Shown piece after piece: positions 57,701-64,000 of a stretch of 64,000 nucleotides of DNA (within the stretch, counting starts at the first letter, position 1; every line of letters starts with the position of its first letter). The stretch is from Paragorgia papillata. Taxonomy: Eukaryota > Cnidaria > Anthozoa > Scleralcyonacea > Coralliidae. The stretch is taken from the NCBI GenBank assembly GCA_035771165.1, contig JAWNZC010000014.1, positions 1,773,001 through 1,837,000 on the forward strand, in the 5' to 3' direction. The notes beneath the pieces were generated by a model, which saw only the letters and a list, made by a program, of their open reading frames with translations, searched no databases and was not told the origin of the DNA. The position numbers and the translations under genes are program-made.

Positions 57701-58341
57701 CCAAATCAAAAACTGTAAAATAACTTATCAGCTCTTTTTGCGTCCTATATACAGAAAATTGAAAACTGTGTTGGGTTTATGTGCACTTTAAGCTGAAGCG
57801 AGGATTATTAAACAACACACTTTAAAAGGCTTGTTATTTCGTCAATGTGTTTAATAAAGCTGTGTAAAAAGTAGACTGAAAGCCAGCCGCCGATCTCATC
57901 TCGTTCTCACTCCTGAGAGTGAGAACGAGATGAGATTGGCGGCTGGCTTTCAGTTTATGTAAAAAGATAATTTGTCGAAATGTATTGAAATTAAACAAAA
58001 AATTAATGATATAAAATATTTAACTGATGGTTGTGATAATTAATTAACGTGCAGCATAGACGGCAAATGAACACCAGCACCTGAAATACTGGGATATCCA
58101 CGTCAAATTTACTAACCTGAGTATTGCCAGACGTAGTGTTTCGTGCTGCCGTTGTGGTAGCTGTTGATGAGACGGATGTCGATGGCCTTGTCTCACTTCG
58201 TGGCGGGCCTGATGGACGCAAGAAACTCGTCACAGCATTCGCCACAACCCTTCCTAACTCTTCTGCGTTAAAACCATTCATTACATCGCCAACTATTCCG
58301 GTCATGTGTAAAACATTTGGGTCAGCGGACTTTCCCACCAA
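54713..58341 (-). CDS. Unrecognised multi-exon protein, Cys-rich segment
   Basis: Minus-strand exons: 58117-58341 (MVGKSADPNVLHMTGIVGDV, Ser/Thr-rich end), 56505-56810 (RTKTWSKDVCIPEEDHVAVD, TIPIPRGETRG), 55151-55393 (VEISSIFGKLFLL, SYSFVWSGQEVASLAGQG), a cysteine-rich exon near 54890-55062 (GKDCLGRRCCECCSKL) and 54713-54819 (acidic, ERSPTCSTEISV). The first three junctions are all phase 0; the joint into the Cys-rich exon is unclear. The middle exons faintly resemble N-terminal regions I remember from invertebrate G2/M-phase-specific E3 ligase-like proteins, but there is no HECT domain here and I do not assign a function. The gene is head to head with the chromodomain gene. Its last donor (after 54713) is phase-compatible with the recombinase exon at 54346. 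Confidence 0.6.
57190..57791. mobile_element. Long-inverted-repeat element, TTAA target duplication
   Basis: TTAAAGTGCATATAAACCC at the left and the complement of GGGTTTATGTGCACTTTAA at the right. Inner arms include AACTGATAAGTTATTTTACA and TTTTTGATTTGGTCCATTC. The centre is asymmetric and about 250 bp. Confidence 0.83.
57875..57953. repeat. Perfect hairpin
   Basis: CTGAAAGCCAGCCGCC and GATCTCATCTCGTTCTCACT arms meet at CCTGA. Stem about 37 bp, one mismatch. Confidence 0.85.
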
Positions 58342-58356
58342 TATTGAAATTCCAAT
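58342..58356. promoter_or_regulatory. 15-bp gap between divergent start codons
   Basis: The ATGs of the minus gene (58341) and the chromodomain gene (58357) are 15 bp apart, so either transcripts overlap in their 5' leaders or one start is further downstream. Evidence is position only. Confidence 0.5.
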
Positions 58357-59402
58357 ATGGCGGCTCGAAATAGAAGTGTGATTGACTACAAGCAGTTAAA
58401 TAGTTTTTCGTCCGTCGTACTCTACGATACAGCACCCAAAAAGAAGAGGAAAACATTGCCGATAACATACCAGGTTGAGAGGATTATATCGAGACGGCGA
58501 GTCAACAAGGTCAGTTCGATATTCTTGCATTTGATAATTCTACATTTTACGAATTTTATTAAAATATTTTGTAAATATTTTTGGATTAGCTTGATATTTA
58601 ATCTTTCGTTTAATATTTCTAAGGAATACGAATATCTTATCAAGTGGGAAAGCTGGCCGCTAGAAACCTCTACGTGGGAGCCTAGTGATCATCTAAATGA
58701 AGAATTAGTAAGGTGAGATATTTGAAGTGAGAAATATCTCAGTCTTTATAGATTCGATTTTTCAAACAATTTAAAGCTTATATACATAGTAAAGTTTTGC
58801 CGTCTTATATGTCAGAAATGTCAAGTGACTCCCTTAATAGATAAATATAATATTAATGCTGTCTGTTTAGTATACTTCACATTGAATTCAGGCAAAACAT
58901 TGCTAGCGTATTGTATATATATGAAACACAAATAACTACTCCCCTGACTCAAATACTCTCTACCTACAGAGGTTATGAAAGTCCACCAAAGCCGTGCTCT
59001 TCAAGACTGCATGAGGCTAGCCGCCAGTTTTATGAAGGCATTCTGTGTAGTCTAAAGTCCAAGTCGTCTAACCCAACATACGTTCATATGGAACTGGACA
59101 TTTGGCGGTATACCACCAATGGAAAAGGTATGGACTCCCAGCACAAAGGGTATAGACTGTACTCAATTCAAGATATGTCTCGCTTGCCACTTCCAGAACA
59201 TTGGTGGTACTATCTTAACAATGAGCATGGACAGGGACATGCAGTCCGGTTCCCACTCAAGATAAAGCCAATTCTCAGCTGGACAAGCAGCCATCAAAAG
59301 TTTGTACAAAACAAACTTATCCAAGCTCCCAGAATGCCAATAGAAAAACTATCCATGCACATACTAAAACAGCCATGTGATATTGACAACAATTTACTAT
59401 GA
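58357..59402 (+). CDS. Chromodomain protein, C-terminal domain unknown
   Basis: Likely nuclear methyl-lysine reader. Exons 58357-58509, 58624-58712, 58970-59402, all in phase, about 225 residues. A basic stretch (PKKKRK, a nuclear-localisation-type motif) precedes a chromodomain that spans the first intron: YQVERIISRRRVNK | EYEYLIKWESWPLETSTWEP. Conserved aromatic-cage positions are Y, W and W, and the TWEP box is present. The C-terminal 145 residues (FYEGILCSLKSKS, MELDIWRYTTNGKG, EHWWYYLNNEH) form a domain I do not recognise. Start chosen at the first ATG, which gives the exon the correct phase. Divergent to 58341 and convergent with the RAG1-like gene 930 bp downstream. A plus-strand AATAAA at about 60312 is a possible polyA signal. 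Confidence 0.85.
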
Positions 59403-59446
59403 ACCAAAGGCTACATAGGTAATTAATATATACTACATAGCATAGT

Positions 59447-59676
59447 TTAAAGTGGCAGTCAAGTCTTCTGTGAACAATGCAGTTTATTTACCCTTTGAGA
59501 ACACTATATTATTTTTAAAAAAAATAAGTTAATATCTAACATCATTCTGGTTTGTTGGACTTTTATAATTAATATAGAAGACAATTCCAATGTAAAATAT
59601 GATGAACAATGCAAAATGCTTATGCAAGAGGTCTTTACATAGCACATTTGCAGAATGGACTTGACTGCCTCTTTAA
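59447..59676. mobile_element. 230-bp element, TTAA target duplication
   Basis: TTAAAGTGGCAGTCAAGTC at the left and GACTTGACTGCCTCTTTAA at the right, in the gap between the chromodomain and RAG1-like genes. No coding content. Confidence 0.82.
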
Positions 59677-59699
59677 TATATATATTATAATTAATAGCA

Positions 59700-59900
59700 T
59701 GGTTACCATGGTATTGATCAGTGATTAAATGTGCCTGGATTAGTGAAGGTTGAGTTAGAGTGACTGAGGAGGCATGTGCCTCTGAGGTCTCGGGTTCGAT
59801 TCTCAGCTGTGTGAACTTACTCTGCTCATGTGAAAAGAGTTAGTCAGCACTCTGCTGAAGGTTGTGGGTTAATTGTCTCTGCTGCGGGTTAGGATAAATA
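59700..59900 (+). repeat. Possible tRNA-derived SINE
   Basis: GGGTTCGATTCTC near 59799 is a good pol III B box. A weak A-box-like GGATTAGTGAAGG lies about 55 bp upstream. The rest of the region does not fold as a tRNA, so a SINE is likelier than a tRNA gene. Confidence 0.35.
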
Positions 59901-60330
59901 GGTTAGGAAAGTAATATTACAACTGTTGTAAAATATATATTACCTGTACTCTAGATTAAACACCTACTGTAATGTATTATTGTAAAGTTGATTTGATCAT
60001 ATTCACATGGATATTTGTGCTAAATAACTTCTAATTATTATTAAGACATATGCAGACTTGCAGGTACATTTAATCACTGATCAACCTCAATACCATGTTG
60101 ACACCATATAATATTATGGTTACCAAGATACTCAGGAAACATAAATCCTTTAAATGATTTCTACTTAGCCATGATTTTATAATATATTCTATAAGGTAAA
60201 AGTTTGTTCTTATCACTATATAGTGTTACCAAATATTGCAACTACATGCTGATATTATTTACTGTATAGCAACTGCGATTAAAACTTTATTTGGCCAACA
60301 TTCCGACAACGCAATAAAGTCAGCAACACT

Positions 60331-63300
60331 TTATTGATTTTGTAAATAGGCATCCTGGAACATTTCTTTCAAACGTGGTAAATTCCTGATTCGGGTTTGA
60401 ACACCAAACTTTTTCAGGCCTGCACGTAGTTCAGCTGGTGACATGCTTTCGACATCGATTGCTGGTTTGGGAGCATTAGCCCTAGCTTCCATTCTGGACT
60501 CCATTTGCTTAACCCGTTTTTCTTTAATGTCATGATCCCAGTAGGGATGTTTCTTTTTAACATATGTCCTTGGTGTACGTTGAAGTTTGTTGAGGCCTTC
60601 GACACGTTTCATTACACGAAGAACATCTGCAGCAGCATCCCACTTATTAGATTTGTTTAAGTGGATTCTCCTGCAGTCATCGTTGTTCTTCTCGACCCCT
60701 GTTTGTATAAATTTGGGTTATTTATTAGGAAAAACATATCAACATAGTAAGAGGCAACCTAATTCTTATAATAGATTCATACTGACTATACAATATTGTA
60801 GAGTAACTACAATATTGTATACCTATGTACAATCTAATCTCACCTTGGCCTGTAAATTTCTTGACCCCATTGTGCATTTGCATAAACATTGGCACATGGT
60901 AGACCATGGCATGCATGTAAGGGGTAACATTTGCATTTGCAAACCCAGAACATTTTCCAGCAAGAGAGGTAAACAGCGATATCCATTTCCTTGCCTATAA
61001 CATTGAAAAACCTAAAATTATTCATTGTCAAAGATAAACACTCACTTGTTTATTAGGGGTTTTTAATTTACATTTCTAACTTATATAACAAACAAAATTA
61101 TACCTTTTCAAAGTAGTCTGTGACATACTCTTTGGACGGTTGTTGCTCATTTAGCATTGAATATAGGTTGTTAAAGTCCTATATAGAGAGAAAAAAAGAG
61201 GTGTAGTTAATTTATAATGTAGTACCCTTATCAATGATTGAAATGATTGTGGAAAGTAGAGTGATGTGACAAAAGAGAGATTTGTGACATTTTTGCAAAG
61301 TAGTAGAGTACTGTACATAATTTATACCCCCCACTGACAAATATCTATCATCTAATGTACCATCAAAGGGCAAGTGTGAAATGGGGTGAATTTGGGTAGT
61401 TTTCCCTATTCATTCTATTTCATACTTGTTCAAATGTGGGTTAATATTAGTGTGAAACAATATATACAGTACCTTCCAAATTTTGATCACAGTGTCACTT
61501 GTGCTATTTGGTTTGATGACTCCATGTAATTTTTCTGGAAGATGTTTTAATAAGAGCTTTTTGTCTGAACCCATCAGGCTTGTGAAGTCATATGTCCCAC
61601 TATCATTCCCATCAGCATTCTTCTTTTCCCACACCTTAAAACAGACTCCACAGCTGTTAATGGCTGACACTAAGGAATCAAGGTGCGCGGTTGTTCTCTT
61701 GCATGGGGGCTTGTCGTGGTTGTCTTCCCTGTCCCAGTCCAGTACTTCTGCGACAAGGTTCCTCGTTAAAACATCTGAAATATAAAATAAATATCATAAA
61801 TATCCAGGGTAATAGTATCTCATTGACCCATTACTGTCAGTAACAAAGGTTGATATTGTAGTTTCCAGTAGCAGTCTCTTTAGACACCTTCCTATAATAA
61901 TTATAATAATTATGTCATTGTGCATATTTGATATCCTACCTGTTATTCTAAGCATAAGATGTAGCTCATCAAGAATGACATTCTGCAGAGGTATGTTTAA
62001 CAAGGGCCTGTGAGCACATGACTTTGTTTGATCCCAGGCGCACTTTGTAATGTCTGCAAGGGTTCTTGCCATTTTTTCTCCACAATAGTGGTCCTGAGGC
62101 TTAGACATGTCAAACCTTAAATATAATAAACATATATGGGCATGTTTACAGTGTGGTTGCTGTATGCCAGATAACATAATTTATTTTTATAGTCGTAGTC
62201 CATTACATAAAATTGGAACACCATGTTGCTACTAAACTACCCTGTTCCACTGTACAGTACCTGTACTAACCTGTTGCTCTTGTGAATGGTACACCAAATG
62301 CAAGCATGGTCAGATGTTGCAGCTTTAAATCCAAGGAGCAGCAAAAGGAACTGCAATTTAAATTATTAGGAAATTCAATGTTTTGAACAAAACAGACTGG
62401 CATTGTGTTGTTGTGAAAGAATACCTCAATTATTTATTATGTAATATTATAATCCTGACAACCTTCAACAATTTTTATATTTTTCATGTCACACATACAT
62501 CAGATGATTTTATCTGTTTGACTGTGTAAACATACAGTTGTTTAAGTTATTGTATAATGTCACCTTCATCGTCCTATACCTGTTTACTGTATTTCCCAGA
62601 TTAAGCACCCTGGACACTTATTTTAACTTTCAAGGGTGGGTGAAGGGGAACTTGCTTAAGGGAGTGAGTGCACTTATAATTATTATAAAAGCTTTCATTT
62701 AAATTTGTGCTCAAGGAGGATGGCACTCAAACAATTAAGGTGGCTAATATTTCAGAGTGGGTGAAATTGACAAGGAAATACAGTACCGTACCAGTATACA
62801 CATATCTTATGTTATCACTTCTATTCTTATAATATTAAAACATGGTTTATAAAATAGGTTGATTTTAATACCTTATAGTCACCACCCAAAAATATCTCAA
62901 CTGGGATATCATGTTCATCAACAGTGACTTTTCCTTCCTTTACAATCTTGTTTATTGAACCAAACAGCACACCAAATGAATTTTTCAGGAGATCATAACT
63001 CTCGGAACCTTTGACCACTGCAATTGTATGACTTCCTTTATGAATAGAATAAATACATATGCAATGTCATGAAAAATTATTACTTGTCGTTGCCATTGCA
63101 ATCAAAGTCTGGAATAGACTACTAGTACCATACATATTTTAGAACCAGAACATACCTTTCGATGACATGACATCATCACTTTCAAGCAAAGAGAAAGACA
63201 TTACAACAAAGCTGGTACGCCGGGTCATTTGGGCTCCATCACCACTGATCTTGACTCGCAGTTTACCACTAGTTTGTTCTTGGTAATGTGCAGGATCAAT

Positions 63301-64000
63301 CTATCGAATAGAATATAAGTTCAAATTTTTATTTAGGATTTGAATTTTGATAGCCACAATGACAATAATAGTGATATTATATTAATTCATATTATGGTTT
63401 TAGTAATTTCCCTATGCCTTGTACATACCATCTGCTACTGGCTACCTATAGTATACACATATTACACAGTACTGTATAACTGGGCCAAAATTTAACATAA
63501 AATGTACTTGCCTGATTTCTTATTGCCATCTTTAGTTCTCCCTCAAAGTCAAGCTGGGCACCCTCCTCTACTCCAGGTGTGCGGCTGATGTGGCACAGGC
63601 TGTTTAGGTTGGTCTTGCATTGCTTAACCAAGTAAGAGCGAGGAAGCGAGGAACCACCATCTCTCATTGTCAACTCATGATAAGCAGCCTCACTGATACA
63701 AAACTTATCCATGATGTAGAGAATCTGTTGAACCTTCTCTTTTTCATCCTCAGAGAGCTCATTGTAGTTTTTCTTCACTCCAATATCTGTTTGGTACTCA
63801 ATGGTATGAGGTGCGCCAGTTTGATCTTTAAACTCGACAAAGCTTAGTTGAAGGCCAAATGTATCGGCAAACCAAAGCGCCTTCTCAACATAGGACTTCA
63901 GTTCTCGTATCTTTCGACGCTGTTGTCTGTCCTTGACTTCAGAAATTACTTTGCCACAGTTCTTGAATCCTTCTTGTTCAGAAATCTTGCCCAAGTACAT
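60331..64000 (-). CDS. RAG1/Transib-like DDE protein with SAP-like C terminus, 5' end outside window
   Basis: Probable DDE-type recombinase or a domesticated relative. Minus-strand exons: 63512-64000, 63156-63300, 62872-63035, 62271-62350, 61940-62115, 61473-61774, 61104-61178, 60844-60994, 60331-60698; every junction keeps phase, and intron 1 uses a GC donor (CAG|GCAAGT). In order: KISGDGA (candidate first D), SFVVMSFSLLE, FLGGDYK (candidate second D) followed after about 19 residues by CIWC, VILDELHLMLRI, YMHAMVYHVP (H-x4-H), and GQGVEKNND (candidate E), then a basic stretch and SPAELRAGLKKFGV, a SAP-like motif, to the stop. Mouse/human RAG1 has the same series: CDG, GYDEK, C-x2-C, DALH, H-x4-HVP, EGNESGN. 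About 590 residues visible. An AATAAA overlaps the stop codon (minus strand). Many introns argue for a host-type gene or an old family. Confidence 0.8.

Follow-up and report, generated by a model that had tools for sequence, protein, structure and literature searches.

The window analysed here, a stretch of 64,000 nucleotides from Paragorgia papillata (contig JAWNZC010000014.1, positions 1,773,001 to 1,837,000 of the forward strand), ends inside a DNA transposon of 7,103 bp, named fam1, which runs from window position 58284 to 1,386 bp past the window edge (G000:C14:1831284-1838386). The element carries a transposase gene on the minus strand and a second, convergent gene, which we call the partner (Table 1). 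On the minus strand of 60331–64000, splicing joins nine exons into one open frame of 649 amino acids (aa) within the window, in agreement with an earlier sequence-only reading of this DNA, which had counted nine or more exons. Addition of the next 1,386 bp of the contig completes a transposase of 856 aa with a single long first exon. The splice map was built from reading frame, splice signals and homology; seven of the eight introns are GT-AG, and intron 1 (window 63301-63511) reads as GC-AG. The sequence-only reading was right to place a gene at 60331..64000, but its coordinates cut off the gene start, and it missed both the partner gene and the point, 58284, at which the element ends. The partner has three exons and 224 aa and begins 73 bp inside the right end of the element, and both genes of the window copy have open frames.

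Table 1. Features of the fam1 element in the window
Feature	Position	Strand	Remark
DNA transposon fam1, window part	58284..64000	.	8 copies at 8 sites, flanks differ
Right terminal inverted repeat, 18 bp, CATCGCCAACTATTCCGG	58284..58301	+	Perfect match to left end beyond window
Partner exon 1: start ATG, first part of chromodomain	58357..58509	+	Pfam Chromo E 1.1e-12, spliced protein
Partner exon 2: rest of chromodomain	58624..58712	+	
Partner exon 3: conserved ~141-aa domain	58970..59402	+	
Transposase exon 9: catalytic E737 (GQGVEKNND), SAP/HeH-like C terminus (plausible but weak), stop	60331..60698	-	
Transposase exon 8: zinc ligands H712-x4-H717	60844..60994	-	
Transposase exon 7	61104..61178	-	
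Transposase exon 6	61473..61774	-	
Transposase exon 5: DELH	61940..62115	-	Counterpart of RAG1 DALH (its H = H795)
Transposase exon 4: C490-x2-C493	62271..62350	-	
Transposase exon 3: catalytic D471 (GGDYK)	62872..63035	-	
Transposase exon 2: catalytic D391 (SGDG)	63156..63300	-	
Transposase exon 1, window part	63512..64000	-	621 bp more beyond window to ATG; GC donor at 3' end

A copy count and a search for terminal inverted repeats (TIRs), both suggested by the sequence-only reading, returned eight near-identical fam1 copies and perfect 18-bp TIRs. The copies have about 7.1 kb in common, lie in different flanks and differ by 0.04-0.38% pairwise substitutions. Variable sites number 34 of 3857 positions in non-coding sequence, 17 of 2571 in the transposase and 3 of 675 in the partner, and the corresponding gap columns number 82, 3 and 2. 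This pattern of divergence fits recent spread, and the element has been mobile recently in its host genome. The C87 copy has an interruption of ~1.4 kb, the alignment of the C473 copy splits into two pieces near the right end, and four other copies carry an indel in coding sequence or an exon whose match is broken. Homologs of the last transposase exon occur at no fewer than 120 places in the 618-Mb genome.

The spliced protein contains all five landmarks of the RAG1 core in the order that the sequence-only reading had given. In the window transposase, the second catalytic D is followed after 19 residues by the first C of C-x2-C, and the second H of H-x4-H after 20 residues by the catalytic E; the local spacing is equal in mouse RAG1 (D708/C727/C730/H937/H942/E962). 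The distance between the first and second D is unlike RAG1, with 80 residues here versus 108. These positions are strongly conserved in an alignment of 132 sequences, comprising the 856-aa protein and 131 homologs of at least 300 aa. Among non-gap rows, the first D is kept in 127/128, the second D in 128/131, the two cysteines in 130/130 each, the two histidines in 120/121 and 118/119, the final E in 113/115 and the DELH histidine in 126/126. The SAP-like C terminus that the sequence-only reading described is plausible but weak in the window copy, in which the only Pfam match is LEM, with an E value of 0.25.

Profile comparisons link the family to RAG1. When a profile of 74 relatives was searched against 177,635 PDB sequences, the top match was amphioxus RAG1L (E 1.5e-5) and the next nine were vertebrate RAG1; coiled-coil proteins are interspersed among further RAG1 matches below the top ten, and HzTransib is not among the best 60 of the 78 matches. 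In a Pfam scan of 56 members, RAG1 and SAP tie as the most-matched families, with seven members each at E<=0.05 (RAG1 best 9.7e-5); member P0093 scores 18.3 bits, under the Pfam cut-off of 25, and no CMCT transposase model other than RAG1 is among the best 25 of the 79 Pfam families matched. The sequence-only reading had held chance to be unlikely from the zinc-ligand spacing and had proposed a search against RAG1 models, and the spacing was confirmed; by the rank of RAG1L and RAG1 in the profile search, the similarity to RAG1 is beyond chance. An RNase-H core with the aspartate–aspartate–glutamate (DDE) residues and a ZnC2/ZnH2 site is present in the order and fold of RAG1, and the fold of the Transib transposase is likewise present. 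The fold comparison was made for a relative, and its 50 listed matches, with which other folds are compatible, comprise RAG1/RAG1L, Transib, P element, ISCth4, Hermes, retroviral integrases and two structures outside the fold class (7m7a, 7zjr). The closest database match of the transposase is from the octocoral Dendronephthya gigantea (65% identical), and further relatives come from corals, anemones, molluscs and the protist Lithocolla; among the matches listed, all named relatives are uncharacterized, hypothetical, unnamed or predicted. Iteration of the protein search gave a list of 21, including 13 new ones.

The partner is a conserved companion of the transposase. Its protein has 166 matches in the genome. 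When pieces of one locus were merged by hand, the 120 transposase matches gave 115 loci, and the listed partner matches, out of 166, gave at least 106. A partner match lies within 4 kb at 83 of the 115 transposase loci, on the opposite strand and tail-to-tail in 83/83 cases, with a median gap of 494 bp, while random placement would yield 0.16 pairs. The element has a convergent second gene, as do most RAGL elements. The same layout is found in a 5.3-kb family (C77/C203), the transposase frame of which is intronless; an open reading frame with GRF-type zinc fingers by the C77 copy (L033:133-249, Pfam E 1.2e-18) lies outside the element and was dropped. In sequence searches, no kelch domain of the RAG2L type was found in the partner, Chromo being its sole Pfam match below E 0.1, and there was no PDB sequence match. 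The ~141-aa domain has no PDB sequence match at E<=10 and no Pfam family above chance, with two single-member matches at E 0.15 and 0.28. Since this main domain has no known relative and the role of the protein is read from its sequence, there is a substantial minority chance that the partner is a passenger or an anti-silencing factor and not a subunit that aims the transposase. Against this stands its retention, always convergent, at 83/115 loci, with partner identity down to ~26%.

Four families carry the terminal pattern CATNRCCARMWAT(T/C), or one near it, at each end, and in a fifth the right end has it; all these ends begin with CAT. The element termini read CAT..ATG and are 5'-CA..TG-3' ends of the CMCT type. 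Two fam4 copies (C270 and C48) have the four bases TTCA in common before CAT; CAT was kept as the element end because TTCA does not precede it in fam4 copies C88a, C88b and C87. Outside the element, a minus-strand open frame (window 58003-58283) has its ATG 2 bp beyond the element end (MNGFNAEELGRVV..) and is perhaps the first exon of another gene.

Target sites were compared at 19 independent insertions from the four families with both ends. Left out were fam2 C372 and C353 and fam4 C225, for which the pattern search gave no left end (C353 also shares the flanks of C91), C88b, which shares the flanks of C88a, and fam5, in which the left end was not found. Copies that share flanks (C91/C353, C109/C112, and those at 984 kb and 1003 kb of C88) represent one insertion per pair, either because the region is duplicated or because both haplotypes are present, and were counted once where used. 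At the 19 sites there is no fixed target-site duplication, and a duplication of 2-5 bp, as in the CMCT clade, is not found. A regular 5-bp duplication was rejected, as 17/19 sites have no 5-bp match at all and empty sites are seamless; 5-bp matches occur at C375 and at C461, the latter inside an AT repeat, and at one of these two sites TGAAC stands on both sides of the insertion.

Two insertions could be compared with empty counterparts. One fam1 copy and two fam4 copies (flanks shared, counted once) lie in C88 inside a 205-bp satellite. For the fam1 site, 40/40 units of the satellite around the fam1 copy equal the joined flanks in length, 18 of them also with identical letters; for the fam4 site, 40/42 units of the same satellite do so, 36 with identical letters. 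The match of empty units to the joined flanks means that no bases were duplicated or lost, and insertion at these two sites was seamless. The satellite insertions of the two families lie at ~1.06 Mb of C88 (L012/L013) and near 984 kb and 1003 kb; they would fit chromatin-guided targeting, with only two events. We also considered a 1-bp duplication. The base at position 1 is equal on both sides at 12/19 sites versus 4.9 expected from re-paired flanks (P 6e-4), and a match of any length from 1 to 6 bp occurs at 15/19 versus 6.6 expected (P 4e-5), an excess that is improbable by chance; however, the fam1 site in C88 (T|T), the one such site with empty counterparts, shows no duplication. The excess of equal bases is not reconciled with seamless insertion.

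Our best explanation, with a probability of about 0.8, is that fam1 is a recently mobile two-gene DNA transposon, the transposase of which combines a complete DDE active site with the core fold of RAG1/Transib, and that it belongs to a lineage apart from RAGL and Transib. In the mechanism that we propose, the transposase most likely binds the CATCGCCAACTATTCCGG ends and most likely cuts at the terminal CA. It would be catalytically active and would move the element by cut and paste through RAG-like, putatively nick-hairpin, chemistry with little or no stagger; the 5-bp stagger that RAG and Transib use would be missing when the ends are joined to the target, so that insertions would carry no regular target-site duplication. 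The convergent gene most likely yields a partner subunit, which may pair physically with the transposase and, through its chromodomain, tie the complex to modified histones, by analogy with the PHD finger of vertebrate RAG2, which does so for its own complex. A wider proposal, for which we see somewhat less than even odds, is that these elements form an undescribed superfamily of two-gene transposons whose RAG1-fold transposase and convergent histone reader arose as a parallel to RAG1-RAG2, with zero stagger and chromatin-steered insertion. Among the matches listed in searches of open-licence literature, which takes in neither Repbase reports nor most subscription papers, none describes these paired genes; any novelty is therefore provisional. 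How a RAG1-fold transposase acquires a chromatin-reading partner is a standing question. If the wider proposal holds, the pairing of recombinase and chromatin reader would be a recurrent design of the clade and RAG no one-off. The family itself offers an independent test of the partner's role, along with a natural RAG-fold enzyme whose target stagger differs.

By sequence, the family appears to lie near RAG1/Transib and Chapaev, and within the wider RAG1/Transib/Chapaev/CACTA (CMCT) clade it seems to form a lineage of its own. That it is instead a divergent branch of Chapaev is unlikely, though far from negligible. The case for it comes from P0133, a distant homolog of the family (E 5.5e-11) that carries DUF1280 and an N-terminal match to the Chapa-like, importin-binding region of RAG1 (E 5e-4, under Pfam's cut-off) and that outscores mouse RAG1 on the family profile (60 versus 22 bits). 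That match covers the D-D-CxxC-DELH half only, without the H-x4-H and E part, and the identity of P0133 as Chapaev is not proved. Pfam searches of the window transposase gave no Chapa-type zinc domain, either for the portion inside the window (E<=10) or for its first 370 aa (E<=1). Furthermore, the element has a conserved second gene and no regular duplication of 3-4 bp, the length of Chapaev target-site duplications. A side observation from P0133 is that DUF1280, a Pfam family of unassigned function, may belong to a transposase.

It is quite improbable that the element is a genuine RAGL or Transib transposon whose ends are derived. The fold and active site, the two convergent genes, as in most RAGL, and a 5-bp match at one fam2 site agree with it, but the CAT..ATG ends, not CAC, and the chromodomain partner without a kelch match place the element in neither group; the absence of a 5-bp match at 17/19 sites, the seamless empty sites and a similarity to RAG1 at profile level only argue further against it. 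The sequence-only reading had offered an undescribed RAG1/Transib-related lineage or a domesticated member; the first agrees with our placement, and domestication, suggested by an open, intron-rich gene, is ruled out for the window copy by eight near-identical TIR-bearing copies and by the many diverged relatives that this genome contains.

Comparison with known systems sets the family apart in several respects. Spy, of the PHIS superfamily, also inserts without target-site duplication, but its transposase is of the PIF/Harbinger type. According to Kapitonov and Koonin 2015 (PMC4411706), the Transib superfamily comprises four clades, one of which, Chapaev, carries the RAG1-type N-terminal Chapa domain. 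The CMCT clade, as outlined by Kojima 2025 (PMC12730594), has C(2)C and H(3-4)H between the second D and the last E, 5'-CA..TG-3' ends and 2-5 bp duplications, and includes EnSpm, Mirage, Plavaka, ESTA and Lanisha; the ends of PlavakaB read CATCA..TGATG. Our family shares all of these features except the duplication, and its Pfam matches go to RAG1. According to PMC7204232, Transib is a one-gene element with CAC ends and duplications of 5 bp, whereas the element here has two genes, CAT ends and no regular duplication. With ProtoRAG/RAGL and RAG1, as described in PMC7204232, PMC9435367 and PMC8355894, the element has in common the RAG1 core fold, the DDE and C2/H2 zinc site of equal local spacing, two convergent genes and CA..TG ends. 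It differs in CAT in place of CAC, in the lack of a 5-bp duplication, in an identity at profile level only, and in a partner that combines a chromodomain and an unknown domain where RAGL has a kelch RAG2, thus presenting a different reader domain beside a RAG1-fold transposase in the same convergent layout.
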